From contig NZ_QUAJ01000023.1 in assembly GCF_003391055.1 (NCBI RefSeq), positions 1 to 51,684 of the forward strand: a stretch of DNA of 51,684 nucleotides, given 5' to 3'. Below, in pieces: positions 27,061 to 37,882 of this stretch. Position numbers and translations under genes: made by a program. This DNA comes from Psychrilyobacter piezotolerans. GTDB taxonomy: Bacteria; Fusobacteriota; Fusobacteriia; Fusobacteriales; Fusobacteriaceae. The notes beneath the pieces are model-generated. The model was not told the origin of the DNA. It searched no databases and worked only from the letters and a program-made list of their open reading frames with translations. Each line of letters starts with the position of its first letter. Positions within the stretch are counted from its first letter, which is position 1.

Positions 27061-27888
27061 TTGAAGAAAATAAGAGTTACTATCCCAAAGTATATGGGAG
27101 ATATATTGAAGTATGATGCTGTAGAATTCGGCCTGAGTAAAAATTATCTGTTAAATTATCTGGTGAAAAATTACAGTCTGCTAAGGGAAAAGGATATACC
27201 TGTACTTGAGGGGGAAAAGGAAATTGTTCAGTTCAATTTAAATAAGGAAAATGAGGATTTTTATAGGGAGGTATATAACAGAAGTGAGTTTGAAACAGAA
27301 GCTTCCTTTATTAGAACTTTGATATACGGGTATATATCCCAATCCAAGGTTATAAGGGAGAGGTTTATATTTAAAAAATTAATAGGAAAGATCCAGAGGG
27401 GGATAAAAGATAAAAAAAAGATAAAGATTAAATTTGAAACAGCCGAAAAAATTGTGAGCCCGTATAATATTTTGTATTCCAGCATGGAAGTGAGTAATTA
27501 TTTGTTCTGTTATTCAGAGGAAGATCAAAATTATAAAAACTACAGGTTATGTAATATTAAATATGTGTATATATTGGATGAAAACAGCTATACAGGAGAT
27601 ACAGAATATCTTAGGAAGGTAAGGGAAGATTTTGATCCGTTTTTATCCTATGGCCTGCCAGTTGAGATAAGATTAAGTGAAAGGGGTCAGGAAAAATATG
27701 ACAGGATAAAGACCAACAGACCTAAATTAATAGAAAAATTAGATGACAGGTGGATAGTGGAGGGATCCCAGGAGAAGATAAAAAGGTATTTTGCTTATTT
27801 TATGAGTGATGCAGAGATAATATCTCCCATGAATTTGAGAGAATGGTTTTTCGAGGAAGCTAAAAAGATGATAGAGATGTATGGTTAA
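27061..27888 (+). CDS. WYL-like domain protein, probable regulator
   Basis: This 275-residue soluble protein is read from a TTG start after GAGCGGGGG. The N-terminal 60 residues (KIRVTIPKYMGDILKYDAVEFGLSKNYLLNYLV) look like a short ribbon-helix-helix DNA-binding module. A WYL-like sensing core lies at about 130-190: IKIKFETAEKIVSPYNILYSS, then YLFCYSEEDQNYKNYRLCNIKYVYILDE. A C-terminal helical/strand region resembles the WCX extension (VEIRLSERGQEKYDRI, then a helix). WYL proteins usually sense nucleotides or nucleic acid ends and regulate transcription. Its divergent position to cysK hints at control of that gene, but there is no direct proof. It is annotated as a hypothetical with this domain guess. 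Confidence 0.6.
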   Translation: MKKIRVTIPKYMGDILKYDAVEFGLSKNYLLNYLVKNYSLLREKDIPVLEGEKEIVQFNLNKENEDFYREVYNRSEFETEASFIRTLIYGYISQSKVIRERFIFKKLIGKIQRGIKDKKKIKIKFETAEKIVSPYNILYSSMEVSNYLFCYSEEDQNYKNYRLCNIKYVYILDENSYTGDTEYLRKVREDFDPFLSYGLPVEIRLSERGQEKYDRIKTNRPKLIEKLDDRWIVEGSQEKIKRYFAYFMSDAEIISPMNLREWFFEEAKKMIEMYG

Positions 27889-28375: not shown

Positions 28376-28885
28376 ATGGAAAAACAAATATTAGTTAGAA
28401 TATATCTAGGTGTTGTAGCGAAATCTAACGGAACATTAAATATTAGATTTCCTTATTTTTTAGATCCAATATTTTACATTGAAGATTTTAATGGGAATAT
28501 GATTATATATAAAGATAAGTTCGATGATCACAATGATATATATATTGATATTAAAAATGGAGAAACAAAAAATATTAAGATTGAATGTTTATGTGAAGGA
28601 ATAAGTGACGTTATAGAAATATTAACAACAGATCAAATGGATGCTAGAGTTGTTAAATTAGAAGTGAAAAACTATACAAAAGGCGGTCGTGTATCCTTAT
28701 ATATAAGGGAAATAAAAAGAAAAATATGGGAAAACTTTAATCTTCGTGCATTTTTAATTAATCCAGTAAATAATAAAGACCTTTATAAAATAGTAGTGCA
28801 TTACCGGAAAATTAGATATAAAAGATTTGGTAATCCTGATCTAATTTATGGCGAATTAAAAAAGGATGTTTTTAAAATATTTTAA
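28376..28885 (+). CDS. Hypothetical protein
   Basis: This 169-residue protein is not recognised. It starts at an ATG 5 nt after GGAGGA, so translation is plausible. Sequence features: an N-terminal strand-rich part with hydrophobic/aromatic alternation (NIRFPYFLDPIFYIEDFNG), an acidic middle (DDHNDIYIDIKNGE) and a strongly basic, aromatic C-terminal part (HYRKIRYKRFGNPDLIYGELKKDVFK). There is no signal peptide or membrane helix. It stands alone, flanked by 490 bp and 350 bp of spacer, with AT-rich, rare codon use unlike its neighbours, which suggests recent arrival. No function is proposed. Confidence 0.55.
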   Translation: MEKQILVRIYLGVVAKSNGTLNIRFPYFLDPIFYIEDFNGNMIIYKDKFDDHNDIYIDIKNGETKNIKIECLCEGISDVIEILTTDQMDARVVKLEVKNYTKGGRVSLYIREIKRKIWENFNLRAFLINPVNNKDLYKIVVHYRKIRYKRFGNPDLIYGELKKDVFKIF

Positions 28886-29722: not shown

Positions 29723-29994
29723 TTTGTCCTCCTCTTATTTTTTTTAACAAAAATGGTTATGAGATCTTCTAAATTTAAATTCCCCCTTTTTAAAATATAA
29801 AGCTAAACTTAAAATTTTATAATGAGTTATTTTGACTCTCAAACCTTTCGTGTAAAAAAAGTATATATGAGTGTACAGAGTTTGTCAAGAAAAAATATGA
29901 TTTAACTGGATTCTGTAAAAATTATATAGAACCTTTGGAGCTATGAACAAAAAAATGTTATAATTTTATGAATTTATAGATAGCGGAGGTAAAG

Positions 29995-30675
29995 ATGAAA
30001 TTTGGAAAAAATTTAACGGTTGAAATAAAACAGATAGAAAATGGTGTAAAATTAAGGGTAGGGGGAGTAAAGAAAGGTATATCCATTACTCCTACAGATT
30101 TTGGATTGGATCTCCATAGGAGAAAGATGGAGGGGGTCACTGTAGATCTCAGGGAAGAGATCGATGTATTACAGGGAATAAAAGATGAACTAACTACAGG
30201 AGAAGATATCATTTTTGAATATCTATATGGAGATGAACTATCGGCTGTGGTTTTAGCCGGGACCATAGCAAAGAAACATATACCATATGAATTAAAAGCA
30301 TTAGCTGTAGAAATAGGTGGAATAAATGCAGTGGAACAGAATAAGGATTATATAACCATAGCTATCCAAAAGATGTTAGGGACTAATGACTCCATAGGTG
30401 GAGTAGTGGAATGTATCCTGCCATATAACTTGGATTTAAATTCTATTAAAGGTGAGTTTTCATGGGTTATCCATAATCTTATGGAGGAGGTCAGTGCAAT
30501 CCAATTTGGCAATGGTGTAAAAGACAGCCGGTCAAACGCAAAAGAGTATGAGCTCAGTAAGAATAAAATAACGGTAACATTTGGTCCCCATATGAAAGAA
30601 AGGAATAAAATTCCATGTTTAGCAGGAGTGAGAGATGTTATAGTGGATTCTGTTTTGTCAATAGTACTATTATAG
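29995..30675 (+). CDS. Chorismate synthase-like protein lacking the catalytic loops
   Basis: This 226-residue protein appears to be a distant homologue of chorismate synthase (AroC, about 360 residues). Segments line up in order: GISITPTDFGLDLHRRKMEG with the RR region; REEIDVLQGIKDELTTGEDI with REPDxVxxLSGxxxGxTTG; VLAGTIAKKHI with VAAGAIAKKYL; NDSIGGVVECILP with GDSIGGxVE; IHNLMEEVSAIQFGNGVKDSR with AxxLMSIxAVKGxEIGxG; and KIPCLAGVRDVIVDSVLSIVLL with HDPCxxxRAVPxxEAMxAIVL. Missing are the GESHG loop, the RPGHADYT segment and the GGGRSSARET flavin/phosphate segment, so chorismate formation is unlikely. The frame is intact with an AGCGGAGG site. It is a single gene about 350 bp before glmS. 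Role unknown. The AroC relation is by eye and should be tested. Confidence 0.62.
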   Translation: MKFGKNLTVEIKQIENGVKLRVGGVKKGISITPTDFGLDLHRRKMEGVTVDLREEIDVLQGIKDELTTGEDIIFEYLYGDELSAVVLAGTIAKKHIPYELKALAVEIGGINAVEQNKDYITIAIQKMLGTNDSIGGVVECILPYNLDLNSIKGEFSWVIHNLMEEVSAIQFGNGVKDSRSNAKEYELSKNKITVTFGPHMKERNKIPCLAGVRDVIVDSVLSIVLL

Positions 30676-31027: not shown

Positions 31028-31450
31028 ATGAAAAATGGAAAGACTATAGTAATCGGAGTAATTGGATCGGACTGTCATGCAGTTGGGAATAAGATCATTG
31101 ATCATGTATTAACACAGCAAGGGTTTAATGTGATCAACGTAGGTGTTATCTCACCACAAGAAGACTTTATAAACGCAGCAGTAGAAACAGATGCAGATGC
31201 AATAATAATCTCTTCATTATATGGTCATGGAGAATTAGACTGTCAAGGATTTAAAGAAAAATGTGATGAAGCAGGATTACAAGATGTAAAATTATATGTT
31301 GGAGGAAACATCGTAGTAGGAAAGCAAGATTGGAATACAGTTGAAGCTAGATTTAAAGACATGGGATTTGACAGAGTATATAAGCCAGGAACACCTATTG
31401 AACTTACAGCAGAAGATATCAAAAAAGATTTAGGAATGATACCTGCTTAG
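31028..31450 (+). CDS. glmS: Glutamate mutase, cobalamin-binding subunit S
   Basis: This 140-residue B12-binding Rossmann protein is the small subunit of adenosylcobalamin-dependent glutamate mutase (methylaspartate mutase), which rearranges L-glutamate to (2S,3S)-3-methylaspartate. The base-off/His-on motif DCHAVG places the cobalt-ligating histidine at residue 17; [10 protein letters not shown] and the GGNIVVG loop complete the site. The gene starts after TTTTTGGAGG. It is followed by glmL and glmE in one operon. The symbol here refers to mutase subunit S, not glucosamine synthase. Confidence 0.95.
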
Positions 31451-31527
31451 TAATATCTGGAACAATATAGTAATGAAAAGGGGAAATTGGGGAAGAAGAT
31501 ACATTATAAAAATTGGGAGTGGTAGAA

Positions 31528-32940
31528 ATGAATGCCTACTTATTGATTGACTTTGGGAGTACCTATACTAAATTGACAGCAGTTGATATAGAAAATGAAG
31601 AGATACTAGCTACTGCTAAAGATATAACTACAATTGAAGATGACATAATGACAGGTTTTAAAAAAGCCTATGAAAAACTCAAATTATGCATAGAAGAAAA
31701 AAATATAAAATTTGATGAGATTAATTTCATAAAGAAAATAGCCTGTTCTTCCGCAGCTGGTGGTTTGAAAATGTATGCAATAGGGCTTGTGCCGGAGCTT
31801 ACAGCAGATGCCGCTAAAAAAGCTGCCCTAGGTGCAGGAGCCAGGGTTATGAAAACTTATTCTTATGAATTGAATCATAGTGAAATTGAAGAGATAAAAA
31901 ATTCAAATGCAGATATATTATTGTTAGCAGGTGGAACAGATGGCGGAAACAAAAAGTGTATCATACATAATGCTAAATTAATAGCAGAAATAAAGATAGA
32001 GATACCGGTTTTGCTGGCTGGAAATAAGAGTGCTAACGACGAAATTATAGAGATATTTGAAGAAGCAGATATAGATTATATAGTAACAGAAAATGTTATG
32101 CCAAAATTAAATAAGATAAATGAAAAACCAACAAGGGAAGCCATAAGAAAGATATTTATGACAAAGATAGTGGAAGCTAAAGGGATGAAAAATGCCGAGA
32201 ACTTCATATCTGGAATACTTATGCCTACCCCGGCAGCTGTATTAAAAGCTGCAGAGGTACTTGCTCTCGGTAGTGATGACGAAGACGGATTAGGGAATTT
32301 GATGGTTGTAGATATAGGTGGGGCCACAACGGATATCCATTCACTGGCAGAGGGTGACCCTAGTAATGCAGGTGTAATTCCTAAAGGCTTGGAAGAACCT
32401 TTTGCTAAAAGAACTGTTGAAGGGGATCTCGGAATGAGATACTCTGCTCTATCATTATTAGAAGCAGCAGGAACAAAAAAAATAAGACGATACCTGCATG
32501 ATGATCATAAAGAGATCGATGTAAAGGCTCACTGTAATCATAGACATGAAAATATTATGATGGTTCCACAAACACCGGAAGAGATATTTTTCGATGAGGC
32601 TATGGCAGGAGCAGGAACTGAAATCGCAATGGTAAGACACTGTGGATGGTTAGAAAGTGTATTTACCCCAATGGGAGTAATGTACTACCAGCATGGGAAA
32701 GACCTTTTAGATGTTAAATACGTAATTGGAACAGGTGGAGTACTGGTGCACAGTAAAAACCCTAGAAATATATTGAAGGCAGGGGAATTTAATAAAGAAC
32801 AGCCGGTACATCTATTGCCTAGATCTCCAAATTATTTAATTGACAGCACATATATATTGTCGGCTATGGGACTCCTTGCAGGAGAAAAACCGGATATGGC
32901 AGTAAGAATAATGAAAAAATATCTTGAGAAAGTTAATTAG
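31528..32940 (+). CDS. glmL: Methylaspartate mutase accessory protein GlmL
   Basis: GlmL (MutL) is a 470-residue ASKHA-type ATPase found between the mutase subunit genes. It is thought to reactivate or assemble the B12 mutase. The N-terminal phosphate loop YLLIDFGSTYTKLTAV and a second phosphate/adenosine region GNLMVVDIGGATTDIHSL (about residue 258) are visible. The ATG at 31528 is preferred (GGAGTGGTAG upstream) to an in-frame upstream TTG. It lies 77 bp after glmS and 14 bp before glmE. Confidence 0.93.
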   Translation: MNAYLLIDFGSTYTKLTAVDIENEEILATAKDITTIEDDIMTGFKKAYEKLKLCIEEKNIKFDEINFIKKIACSSAAGGLKMYAIGLVPELTADAAKKAALGAGARVMKTYSYELNHSEIEEIKNSNADILLLAGGTDGGNKKCIIHNAKLIAEIKIEIPVLLAGNKSANDEIIEIFEEADIDYIVTENVMPKLNKINEKPTREAIRKIFMTKIVEAKGMKNAENFISGILMPTPAAVLKAAEVLALGSDDEDGLGNLMVVDIGGATTDIHSLAEGDPSNAGVIPKGLEEPFAKRTVEGDLGMRYSALSLLEAAGTKKIRRYLHDDHKEIDVKAHCNHRHENIMMVPQTPEEIFFDEAMAGAGTEIAMVRHCGWLESVFTPMGVMYYQHGKDLLDVKYVIGTGGVLVHSKNPRNILKAGEFNKEQPVHLLPRSPNYLIDSTYILSAMGLLAGEKPDMAVRIMKKYLEKVN

Positions 32941-32954
32941 GAGGATCATATTAA

Positions 32955-34412
32955 ATGAATATTAAAAATAAAAAGTGGACAGAGGAAGAATTTTTTAAAG
33001 TAAGAGAAGAAGTATTAAAGCAATGGCCTACAGGTGAAGAGGTAGATTTAGCTGAAGGTGTTAAATATCTAAAGGAATTACCTGATCATAAAAACTTCGC
33101 TAAAAAGTTATGGACAGCTAAGCAAGATGGAAAAACATTAGCACAGCCTAGAGCGGGTGTAGCATTATTAAATGAACATATAGAGTTATTAAGCTTCTTA
33201 TCTGAAGAGGGTGGAGCAGATTTATTACCATCAACTATAGATTCATACACTAGATTAAATAGATATGAAGAGTGTGAAAGAGGAATTAAAGAATCAGAAA
33301 AAGCAGGAAGATCATTATTAAATGGTTTCCCAGGTGTAAACTATGGAGTAAAAGGTTGTAAAAGAGTATTAGAAGCAGTGGACAAGCCGTTACAAGTAAG
33401 ACACGGAACTCCTGATGCAAGATTATTGGCTGAGATCACAATGTCTGCTGGATGGACTTCATATGAAGGTGGAGGAATTTCTTATAACTTACCATATGCT
33501 AAATCAGTATCTATGGAAAGAACAATAAGAGACTGGCAATATGTAGATAGATTAGTAGGATGGTACGAAGAGCAAGGTGTTTCTATCAATAGAGAACCTT
33601 ACGGACCATTAACAGGAACTTTAGTTCCAGTATCAATATCAAATGCAGTACAAATAATAGAGTGTTTATTAGCAGCGGAACAAGGTGTTAAGAGTATCAC
33701 TTTAGGATATGGACAATGTGGAAACTTAGTTCAAGACGTAGCAGCTATCAGAACTTTACAGGAGTTAGCTGAAGAGTACTGTGAAAAATTAGGATATGAA
33801 AATATGCAAATAACTACAGTATTCCATCAATGGATGGGTGGATTCCCAGAAGATGAATCTAAAGCTTTTGGTGTAATCTCAAATGGAGCAGCAGCAGCAG
33901 CATTATCAGGAGCAACAAAAGTAATCGTAAAGACTACTCATGAGGCTATCGGAATCCCTACAAAAGAAGCTAATGCCAATGCAATAAAAGCGACTAAGAT
34001 GGTATTAAACTTATTAGAAGGACAAACATTACCTGATTCTGAAGAGTTAGAAACAGAAATCAAGCAGGTAAAAGCAGAGATCAAATGTATCATGGATAAG
34101 GTATATGACCTTGGAAATGGAGACTTAGCTCTTGGTACTATTGAAGCAGTTAAGCAAGGTGTAATTGATATTCCATTCGCACCTGCAAACGTAAACATGG
34201 GTAAAATGTTACCGGCTAGAGATAACAAAGGTAGAATCAGATATTTAGAGTGTGGAAACATTCCATTCACAGACGAGATCAAGGCATTCAATACAGCTGA
34301 ATTACAAAAAAGAGCAGACTTTGAAGGTAGAGAGATCAGTTTCCAAATGACAGTAGATGATATATTTGCAGTAGGAAAAGGAACTTTAATCGGAAGACCG
34401 GAAAAGAAATAA
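32955..34412 (+). CDS. glmE: Glutamate mutase, catalytic subunit E
   Basis: The large epsilon subunit (485 residues, TIM barrel) binds glutamate and holds the radical chemistry of methylaspartate mutase. Family segments such as [55 protein letters not shown] and [28 protein letters not shown] are plain (each shown here shortened by position: about residues 65-85, 155-190 and 295-320). The RHGTPDAR stretch carries the arginine that grips the substrate. Codon use is strongly biased (Leu almost all TTA), suggesting high expression. It starts after AGGAGG. A terminator follows at 34449. Confidence 0.96.
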
Positions 34413-34448
34413 TAAAAAAATTATGAATAATGGAGAAAGTTTTTAATG

Positions 34449-34478
34449 AAAAGGTAGATTTATAGTCTGCCTTTTCTT
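34449..34478 (+). terminator. Terminator after glmE
   Basis: AAAAGGTAGA (34449-34458) pairs with TCTGCCTTTT (34466-34475) with one G-T pair. It separates the mutase genes from gltS. Confidence 0.75.
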
Positions 34479-34546
34479 GAAAAAAGGGGAGAGTGAAGAG
34501 TCACAAAAATACAAATACATATATGTATACTTAAAGGGGGCAAAAA

Positions 34547-35743
34547 ATGCAAGTTTTTCAAATGGATCACATATCGACATTATTTATGGCGATAATCGTA
34601 TTATTAGTAGGTAGGTTTGTAAGAAGTAAAGTTGGGATATTAAGAAGATTCTTTATACCGGTACCGGTTATAGGAGGGGTTATCTTTGCTGTATTGACTC
34701 TGGTTGGTCATTATACAAATACCTTCGAATTTAGTTTTGACGGTACATTGAAGAGTTTATTTATGATAGCGTTCTTTACGACTATCGGATTTATGGCCAG
34801 TTTCAAACTTTTAGCTAAGGGTGGAATACAGGTTGTAATATTCTTAATTGCAGCAACAGCTTTAGTAATCCTTCAGGATATAGTTGGAATATCACTGGCT
34901 AAGGTATTCGGATTACCGCCATTATTTGGTTTAGCAGCAGGATCTATACCGCTTACTGGTGGACATGGAACTTCAGGTGCATTCGGACCGTTATTGGAGC
35001 AGGCAGGAGCAGCAGGAGCAACAGCAGTTGCCATAGCATCGGCTACATATGGTTTAGTTGCAGGATGTCTGATTGGTGGACCAATCGGAAAAAGACTTAT
35101 GACTAAATTTAATTTAAAGCCAAGTGAAGAGTTATTGAAGGAAGAACATGCTGATATAACAAATGAAGATCAATCAGTAGAGGTTACAGAACATACATTC
35201 TTCAATGCAGCTACAGTTATCATTGTTTCAATGGGAATAGGATCAGTACTAGTAGGATGGTTAAAGCAAGTTGGAATTACTTTACCTATCTATATCGGTC
35301 CAATGTTAGTAGCGGCAGTTATCAGAAACATATCTGACTCAATGAAGAAAGAATTAAATCATAAAGAAATTACTATTATCGGAAATACTTCATTATCATT
35401 ATTCTTAGCTATGGCACTTATGTCTATGAGACTATGGGACCTGGCAGCATTAGCAGTACCTTTAGTAACTATTTTATTGGTACAGACTGTATTAATGGGA
35501 GCATTTGCATACTTCGTTACATTTAATGTAATGGGTAGGGACTATGATGCAGCAGTAATGGCTTGCGGACATTGTGGATTCGGAATGGGAGCTACACCAA
35601 ATGCCATTGCAAACATGGAATCATTTACAGCAGCAAACTATCCGTCATTTAAGGCATTTTTCGTAATACCATTGGTAGGAGCTTTATTTATTGACTTTAC
35701 CAATGCATCGATAATTACTTTCTTCATGAATATGTTTGGATAA
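34547..35743 (+). CDS. gltS: Sodium/glutamate symporter
   Basis: This 398-residue membrane protein of the GltS (ESS) family imports L- and D-glutamate with Na+. It has about ten hydrophobic segments in two inverted halves, each with a re-entrant glycine-rich loop: PLTGGHGTSGAFGPLLEQAG (about 143-162) and ACGHCGFGMGATPNAIANME (about 341-360). The start follows AAAGGGGGC. It lies between glmE and the second glutamate racemase, so it supplies substrate to this fermentation. D-glutamate import would be used with the racemase. Confidence 0.94.
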   Translation: MQVFQMDHISTLFMAIIVLLVGRFVRSKVGILRRFFIPVPVIGGVIFAVLTLVGHYTNTFEFSFDGTLKSLFMIAFFTTIGFMASFKLLAKGGIQVVIFLIAATALVILQDIVGISLAKVFGLPPLFGLAAGSIPLTGGHGTSGAFGPLLEQAGAAGATAVAIASATYGLVAGCLIGGPIGKRLMTKFNLKPSEELLKEEHADITNEDQSVEVTEHTFFNAATVIIVSMGIGSVLVGWLKQVGITLPIYIGPMLVAAVIRNISDSMKKELNHKEITIIGNTSLSLFLAMALMSMRLWDLAALAVPLVTILLVQTVLMGAFAYFVTFNVMGRDYDAAVMACGHCGFGMGATPNAIANMESFTAANYPSFKAFFVIPLVGALFIDFTNASIITFFMNMFG

Positions 35744-35815
35744 ACCTATTAAAATTTTATTAAAAATAGTATAATTTTTATACAATAAAAATTATGATAT
35801 TAGGAGATAGGATTT

Positions 35816-36610
35816 ATGATAGATAGAAGACCAATTGGAATATTTGACTCTGGGGTAGGGGGACTGACTGTTTTAAAAGAGATAGAAAAAATCTTACCCC
35901 ATGAAAATTTAATATATTTTGGAGATAATTTAAGAGCTCCCTATGGATCAAAAAGTACAGAAGAAATTTTGAAATTCACTTTAAATATAAGTGACTTTTT
36001 TATAGAAAAGAATGTTAAAATGTTGATCATAGCATGTAATACAGCTACAGCAGTAGCATTAGAAGTATTAAAAGGTAGATTAAATATACCGGTAATTGGA
36101 GTAATAGCTCCTGGAGCAATAAGTGCTATAAATTTAACCAAAAAAAATAAAATAGGGGTGTTTTCTACACCTGTTACAGCAAAGATGAATGCCTATAAAA
36201 ATGAAATAGAAAAAATCAATAAAGATATAGAAGTTTATCAAATAGGATGTAAACCACTTTGTAAAATGATTGAATCAGAATGGGAAGACACAGAAGAAAA
36301 TCAAGATATAATTAAATATTATGTAGAAAAATTGCCCACGGAAATAGATGTTGTGGTGTTTGGATGTACTCATTACCCTATAATAAAAGAATACTTTTAC
36401 AGAGAATTAGAGGGAAAACAATTTGTAAATCCAGCCAAAGAAACAGCATTGGAGGTAAAGAAACTCCTAAAAAAGCTAAAACTCTTAAATAAAAGAGATT
36501 CAAAAGGGAAGGTTTCTTTTTACACCTCGGGCAGCATCAATAAATTTAAGCAACTTGCAGAAAAAATATTGGATAGATCATTAGAAAAAATAAAACGAGC
36601 ATTAAATTAA
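35816..36610 (+). CDS. Glutamate racemase (copy 2)
   Basis: This 264-residue MurI-family enzyme has both catalytic cysteines: C74 in ACNTATA and C184 in FGCTHYP. The motifs IGIFDSGVGGLTVLKEIEK, GDNLRAPYG and NPAKETALEVKKLL are typical. It is clearly diverged from copy 1 at 3096 (about half identical by eye). It lies between the glutamate symporter and methylaspartate ammonia-lyase, so its likely job is to convert D-glutamate to the L-form used by glutamate mutase, rather than cell-wall supply. The start follows AGGAG. This functional split is inferred from context only. Confidence 0.9.
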   Translation: MIDRRPIGIFDSGVGGLTVLKEIEKILPHENLIYFGDNLRAPYGSKSTEEILKFTLNISDFFIEKNVKMLIIACNTATAVALEVLKGRLNIPVIGVIAPGAISAINLTKKNKIGVFSTPVTAKMNAYKNEIEKINKDIEVYQIGCKPLCKMIESEWEDTEENQDIIKYYVEKLPTEIDVVVFGCTHYPIIKEYFYRELEGKQFVNPAKETALEVKKLLKKLKLLNKRDSKGKVSFYTSGSINKFKQLAEKILDRSLEKIKRALN

Positions 36611-36640
36611 ATTAATCGAATATAAAAGGAGATGTATCAC

Positions 36641-37882
36641 ATGAAAATTATTGATATCATTTGTTCAGCAGGAAAGACAGGATTTTATTTTGACGACCAA
36701 AGAGCTATAAAGGCAGGAGCAGGTCATGACGGTTTTGATTACGTAGGAGAGCCAGTTACTGAAGGATTCTCAAGAATCAGACAAGCAGGAGAATCTATCT
36801 CTGTAATGTTTATCTTAGAAGACGGTCAAGTAGCTCACGGAGATTGTGCAGCAGTACAATATTCTGGTGCAGGTGGAAGAGATCCATTATTCTTAGCATC
36901 TGACTTTATCCCAGTTATCAAAAACGAAATAGCTCCAAAATTAATTGGAAGAGATATAAATGAATTCAGACCATTAGCTGAAGAGATAGATACAATGGAA
37001 TTAAATGGAAAGAGATTGCATACAGCTATCAGATACGGATTAACTCAAGCTATCTTAGATGCAGCTGCTAAAGCAAACAAGATAACTATGGCAGAAGTAG
37101 TAAAAAAAGAATATGCAACTGACGTAGCAATCAAAAGATTACCATTATTCACTCAATCTGGAGACGACAGAAAGAATAATGCAGATAAGATGATAATAAA
37201 AGGTGCAGACATAATGCCGCATGCATTAATCAACCATGTTGAAACTAAATTAGGTAAAGATGGATCTATCTTAAAAGACTACGTAAAGTGGTTAAGCGAC
37301 AGAGTATTAAAATTAAGAGAATCTGAAGATTATATGCCAATATTCCACATCGACGTATATGGAACTATCGGAGTAGCATTTGACCAGGATATCCAAAAGC
37401 AGGCTGACTACTTAGCTACATTAGAAGAAGCAGCAAAGCCGTTCCACTTAAGAATCGAAGGTCCTATGGACGTTGAAGAAAGAGAAGCTCAAGTTGAAGC
37501 ATTATCAGCTCTAACTGCTGAATTAGACAAGAGAGGAATCAACGTAGAATTAGTTGCTGACGAATGGTGTAACACATTAGAGGATATTAAATTATTCGCT
37601 GATAAGAAAGCAGGACATGTAGTACAAATTAAAACTCCAGATTTAGGAGGAGTAAACAATATAGCAGAAGCAGTATTATACTGTAACGAAAAAGGAATCG
37701 GTTCTTATGTTGGTGGAACTTGTAACGAAACTAACAGATCAGCTGAAGTAACTACAAATATAGCAATGGCTTGTGGAGCATTACAAGTATTAGCTAAACC
37801 AGGAATGGGTGTAGACGAAGGTATCATGATCGTAGGAAACGAGATGAACAGAGTAGAAGCATTAGTAAATAGCAGAAAATAA
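36641..37882 (+). CDS. mal: Methylaspartate ammonia-lyase
   Basis: This 413-residue enolase-superfamily enzyme removes ammonia from (2S,3S)-3-methylaspartate to give mesaconate, the second step of the pathway. The general-base lysine K331 lies in VQIKTPDLGG, at the same number as in the Clostridium tetanomorphum enzyme. Metal ligands are seen in FHIDVYGTIG (D238-like), RIEGPMD and ELVADEWCN. The ATG at 36641 has AAAGGAG 9 nt upstream; an in-frame ATG at 36632 overlaps the site. Codon bias suggests high expression. A terminator follows at 37900. Confidence 0.96.
   Translation: MKIIDIICSAGKTGFYFDDQRAIKAGAGHDGFDYVGEPVTEGFSRIRQAGESISVMFILEDGQVAHGDCAAVQYSGAGGRDPLFLASDFIPVIKNEIAPKLIGRDINEFRPLAEEIDTMELNGKRLHTAIRYGLTQAILDAAAKANKITMAEVVKKEYATDVAIKRLPLFTQSGDDRKNNADKMIIKGADIMPHALINHVETKLGKDGSILKDYVKWLSDRVLKLRESEDYMPIFHIDVYGTIGVAFDQDIQKQADYLATLEEAAKPFHLRIEGPMDVEEREAQVEALSALTAELDKRGINVELVADEWCNTLEDIKLFADKKAGHVVQIKTPDLGGVNNIAEAVLYCNEKGIGSYVGGTCNETNRSAEVTTNIAMACGALQVLAKPGMGVDEGIMIVGNEMNRVEALVNSRK

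Follow-up and report, generated by a model that had tools for sequence, protein, structure and literature searches.

A 226-residue chorismate synthase relative without the active-site loops in Psychrilyobacter piezotolerans and other Fusobacteriaceae

Chorismate synthase (AroC, Pfam family PF01264) has a sandwich fold that has been described as exclusive to this enzyme (PMC11633415), and the helical layer and the second sheet together form the active site (PMC3509576). In catalysis, His106/110 protonates the flavin and a conserved Asp activates water for flavin N5 (PMC3509576); five arginines, i.e., R46, R103, R129, R354, and R362, hold EPSP (PMC11633415). In tomato there are two chorismate synthase genes, LeCS1 and LeCS2 (PMC7331636). 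Prozymes, known for AdoMetDC and deoxyhypusine synthase of trypanosomatids (PMC5201418, PMC3663545), are inactive paralogues kept under selection beside an active enzyme. No description of AroC-like or truncated chorismate synthases was found in the literature searched, and the papers searched on the genera discussed below did not mention chorismate synthase; both are weak evidence of novelty. For the tomato pair, a heterodimer contains an inactive partner, and the plant isoform is full-length.

The gene described here, which we call the mini-AroC gene, was found in a 51,684-nt stretch of P. piezotolerans DNA, analyzed as a whole and referred to as the window. The open reading frame is on the + strand, starts with an ATG at 29995, ends with its stop codon at 30675, and encodes 226 aa; the product is a small and probably cytosolic protein. 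A Shine-Dalgarno sequence (GGAGG, 29985..29989, + strand) is located 5 nt ahead of the ATG, and nearly all orthologues carry a GGAG-type site ahead of the gene. The sequence TATAAT, located ~30 nt upstream of the ATG (29959..29964, + strand), reads as the likely -10 element of the gene's own promoter, from which mini-AroC is probably expressed; it was not listed by the promoter consensus scan because the -35 is poor. A TATAAT-type box is found at a similar distance in the Ilyobacter and Cetobacterium genes. No known RNA families were found near the gene.

A first-pass annotation of this DNA had lined up six segments of the protein with chorismate synthase by eye and in order, and profile comparisons bear that alignment out. 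As a single sequence, the protein matches PF01264 at 23.3 bits (E 3.1e-5), which does not reach the curated cut-off of 27 bits; several orthologues exceed it, and all 23 aligned orthologues match PF01264 and no other Pfam family (best E 4.1e-14). Scored with a local AroC profile HMM, the real mini-AroC proteins gave 16-56 bits and their shuffled or reversed copies at most 2.9 bits. When a profile of the 23 orthologues was compared with an AroC alignment in hhalign, the two aligned end to end and in order over 222 columns with an E value of 1.7e-21. A fimbrial fusion and similar solved structures returned by a single-sequence search were chance matches, and the family profile run against PDB sequences found chorismate synthases (best E 2.5e-5). 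We conclude that mini-AroC is a chorismate synthase relative that shares common ancestry with AroC.

The predicted structure agrees with this assignment. A template-free AlphaFold2 model from 23 sequences reached a pLDDT of 87.9 and a pTM of 0.86, and a Foldseek search with it gave 28 matches at E <0.001, every one a chorismate synthase. VIA-align placed 222 of the 226 residues on chorismate synthase 1um0_A (Z 20.4, rmsd 3.2), compared with 6.4 for the best unrelated chain. A divergent orthologue (~40% identical), modeled separately and also template-free, matched chorismate synthase with Z 19.8 over 210 residues. In the predicted models, the beta-alpha-beta sandwich of chorismate synthase is kept over the whole mini-AroC length.

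The difference from AroC lies in what has been removed: mini-AroC has 226 aa against ~330-370 aa and is without the FMN, EPSP, and catalytic residues. In a joint alignment with AroC, the family lacks the GE of GESHG, and the His of this motif is replaced, mostly by Ile. RPGHAD and GGG(H/R)xSxR are missing as one block of ~42 residues, which AroC carries at the position of the Ser83-Ala84 junction (30241..30246, + strand). The PFF loop is also missing, together with ~22 residues of the KTxTNNNGGxxGGITNG loop that include TNNNGGxxGGITNG and another ~22 residues of the KPT..GRHD loop that end at the RHD position, where the sequence is substituted and the catalytic Asp is Ile in most members. The first-pass annotation was correct that GESHG, RPGHAD, and GGGRSSARET are all gone, but the latter two went in a single deletion, and the loss is larger than the three segments it named. 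A mid-protein gap of ~24 residues relative to AroC is not diagnostic because normal AroCs of a short type are without that stretch too.

Among 81 columns conserved at >=90% in the AroC proteins aligned, mini-AroC keeps 14 and loses 67. With AroC residue numbers put on the alignment by motif spacing, the losses include the equivalents of H17, R103, H106, R129, R354, the Asp of RHD, and R362; one of the five EPSP-binding arginines is kept, namely the equivalent of R46 (fungal numbering), which is the invariant Arg43 (codon 30121..30123, + strand). The TTG turn and core G and R positions are shared by mini-AroC and AroC. Since both catalytic His residues, the Asp, four EPSP arginines, and the flavin loops are gone, mini-AroC should be unable to catalyze the chorismate synthase reaction known from AroC. 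A different set of residues, including E54, E65, Y76, N116, Y119, I120, Q125, K126, M127, and K152, is invariant in mini-AroC and not conserved in AroC. N116 to M127 (NKDYITIAIQKM; 30340..30375, + strand) sit on one helix in the predicted model, and invariant Lys152 is a charge reversal at a position where 90% of AroC proteins have Glu.

Mini-AroC genes were found in 24 of 98 Fusobacteriota genomes, all of them from six genera of Fusobacteriaceae: Psychrilyobacter (8/8 genomes), the Cetobacterium group (10/12), Ilyobacter (3/3), Propionigenium maris, and one genome each of the genera g10 and g11. Within the same 98 genomes, the Fusobacteriaceae groups g8 and g13 and the family f4 had none. Apart from the carriers already known, 389 genomes (~290 of them from other phyla) yielded only ordinary AroC, and when 85,000 species were scanned with sequence patterns, mini-AroC was seen in Fusobacteriaceae only; a strongly diverged relative could escape either search. 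A phage origin was considered and rejected, as none of 50,697 phage records matched and the family patterns found nothing in IMG/VR.

In the tree, mini-AroC forms one clade (support 100/100) on a long stem (1.35 + 0.54 changes per column), and the point where this stem joins AroC is left unplaced. The same deletions are present in all mini-AroC relatives. One clade on a long stem means that the loop deletions most simply happened once, and mini-AroC is most simply seen as a chorismate synthase paralogue whose loops were removed in a single episode within Fusobacteriaceae. None of the 24 copies has an internal stop. Pairwise dN/dS values are 0.06-0.15 within Psychrilyobacter and 0.09-0.14 within Ilyobacter and Cetobacterium, with dS close to saturation in the most distant pairs. 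The intact frame and good ribosome-binding site had been read at first as a sign that this is not simple decay, and the low dN/dS and the intact copies elsewhere support that reading. The proposal of a pseudo-enzyme on the AroC scaffold stands as well: the catalytic motifs are absent, the predicted fold is kept, and the gene is maintained by selection. As judged from the sequences, mini-AroC is a real, selected AroC-fold family that is apparently non-catalytic.

One Cetobacterium genome (G033) is without both the mini-AroC gene and the S24 regulator gene found beside it in relatives, and its flanks are 90-98% identical. This was first taken as a real loss. Contigs C38 and C26 (loci L144 and L145) both end at this gap, so an assembly gap and a variable module are indistinguishable here.

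A full AroC with intact motifs (427 bits) is encoded on another contig of the same P. piezotolerans genome, and every well-covered carrier of mini-AroC also has a normal AroC. Because mini-AroC is selected beside the normal enzyme, its role must be other than chorismate synthesis. The AroC of the carriers is of two types that fall in different parts of the tree, a long one in Psychrilyobacter and g10 and a short one in Cetobacterium, g11, Ilyobacter, and Propionigenium. The AroC of genus g6 is without ~20 mid profile positions (149-169), like the short type (G012:C1:1047840-1048778 and G024:C1:2139367-2140305). The mini-AroC gene of Ilyobacter is located on a 961,624-bp replicon, called chromosome II in the genome paper (PMC3035301).

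The neighboring genes differ from genus to genus. Glutamate mutase genes are located downstream in Psychrilyobacter, and positions 31028-37882 of the window contain glmS, glmL, and glmE, followed by gltS. A glutamate racemase (murI)-like gene is found there between gltS and a methylaspartate ammonia-lyase-like gene, both named by eye. A flavodoxin gene is near the mini-AroC gene in two Psychrilyobacter genomes. Upstream, a 275-aa protein (27061-27888 in the window) has no Pfam or NCBIfam match and is kept, at 67-88% identity, throughout the Psychrilyobacter loci long enough to show it. A 169-aa orphan without family (28376-28885) was seen in only one other Psychrilyobacter locus examined.

In all 10 Cetobacterium loci, a divergent LexA/S24-type regulator gene and a conserved gene of ~43 aa stand ahead of the mini-AroC gene (L068:7245-8997, with equivalents in L064-L072 and L077); the promoter region shared by this pair is strongly conserved and has TCTACA / TGTAGA-like sites. 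A glutaminase gene follows mini-AroC in six of the 10 loci, and the outer flanks vary. The Ilyobacter gene adjoins polysaccharide genes, and two similar tandem 48-aa genes are directly 3' of it (L127:8818-9146), copies of which occur in three Ilyobacter genomes only. An HD-domain protein is encoded near the gene in both g10 and g11. In P. maris the neighbors are a histidine kinase gene and an aldehyde dehydrogenase-like gene (named by eye), and ~4 kb away there are aroC, an aminotransferase gene, and a chorismate mutase-prephenate dehydratase-like gene (PheA, named by eye).

When the loci of all carrier genera were compared, no conserved operon partner was found. The glutamate-fermentation setting reported at first is real in its genes (GlmS, GlmL, GlmE, and GltS); since the neighbors differ between genera, the link is local to Psychrilyobacter. 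With no neighbor common to all, the loci give no indication of a shared role in glutamate fermentation or in aromatic synthesis, and the variation fits a self-contained protein.

We regard a stripped AroC paralogue whose core has been re-used for binding or regulation, and not for chorismate synthesis, as the best overall explanation, with about an even chance of being right. All loops holding reduced FMN, EPSP, and the acid-base residues are gone, and the sandwich core is retained in the predicted fold. In this explanation, loop loss would open a cleft lined by the N116-M127 helix, E54, E65, Y76, K152, and the retained Arg43; the cleft would bind a metabolite or a partner protein and act by regulation instead of catalysis, with chorismate made by the normal AroC encoded at another place in the genome. 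Since N116-M127 lie on one helix and the helical layer contributes, with the second sheet, to the active site of AroC, re-use of a pocket is plausible. As to mechanism, a stand-alone binding or regulatory protein is the likeliest candidate, at slightly less than an even chance; the binding cleft and the regulatory role are speculative, a new enzymatic site would explain the invariant polar residues just as well, and Arg43 may be structural. The stand-alone form is favored over an AroC activator subunit because the carriers hold two AroC types.

Such a subunit, an inactive chain that joins the AroC homotetramer and activates, stabilizes, or feedback-regulates it, as the trypanosomatid prozymes do with their partner enzymes, is the second choice and rather unlikely. 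Mini-AroC resembles those prozymes as an apparently inactive paralogue beside an active enzyme under selection: it derives from an obligate oligomer, it always occurs beside its parent in well-covered genomes, and the parent gene there has intact motifs. The change from Glu to Lys152 could be an interface change, and the P. maris gene lies close to aroC and the other two genes named above. The prozyme precedents differ in that mini-AroC does not track one AroC type: an obligate partner should follow one parent, but mini-AroC is one clade and the AroC proteins of its carriers are of two types. Relatives with the same AroC types do without mini-AroC, and P. maris is the only case with an aro-gene link. 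The tomato pair is comparable in that one chorismate synthase gene is accompanied by another, but mini-AroC is without the active-site loops.

Somewhat less likely again is a new enzyme, in which the core would have gained a different active site and would catalyze another reaction. Some pseudoenzymes do so (PMC10211241), and the new invariant polar and charged residues (E54, E65, Y76, N116, Y119, Q125, K126, and K152) could serve such a site; however, they include no His or Cys and form no recognizable catalytic centre, the cofactor loops are gone, and the neighboring genes suggest no shared pathway. In our ranking, binding or regulation by a stand-alone protein comes first, the AroC-associated subunit second, and the new enzyme third.

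A functionless, decaying remnant of a duplicated aroC might be suspected from the loss of about one third of the AroC length and most conserved residues, but it is highly improbable: all 24 frames are intact with ribosome-binding sites kept, identical deletions are found in six genera from one origin, and the codon analysis, with dN/dS between species far from 1, refutes it. That mini-AroC retains chorismate synthase activity through a minimal active site, as the RefSeq annotation of the Ilyobacter polytropus orthologue WP_013389091.1 ("chorismate synthase") and the orthologues above the Pfam cut-off might imply, is the least credible reading of all, given the missing catalytic and flavin-binding parts and the complete AroC in the same genome.

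Mini-AroC is a pseudoenzyme family, and the literature searched gave no other on this fold, which is weak evidence of novelty. It is probably, though by no means certainly, the first functional protein on this fold, previously known from a single enzyme, that is not a chorismate synthase, with an emptied active site re-used within one bacterial family for binding, regulation, or a different enzyme. That selection maintains a family with the fold but not the catalytic loops suggests that these loops are dispensable for folding of the core, and the family gives a natural minimal scaffold. For annotation, at least one member is named chorismate synthase in RefSeq and should be corrected. Should mini-AroC act on AroC, the shikimate pathway of these bacteria would include a prozyme-like subunit; otherwise, mini-AroC would represent a new use of the chorismate synthase fold.
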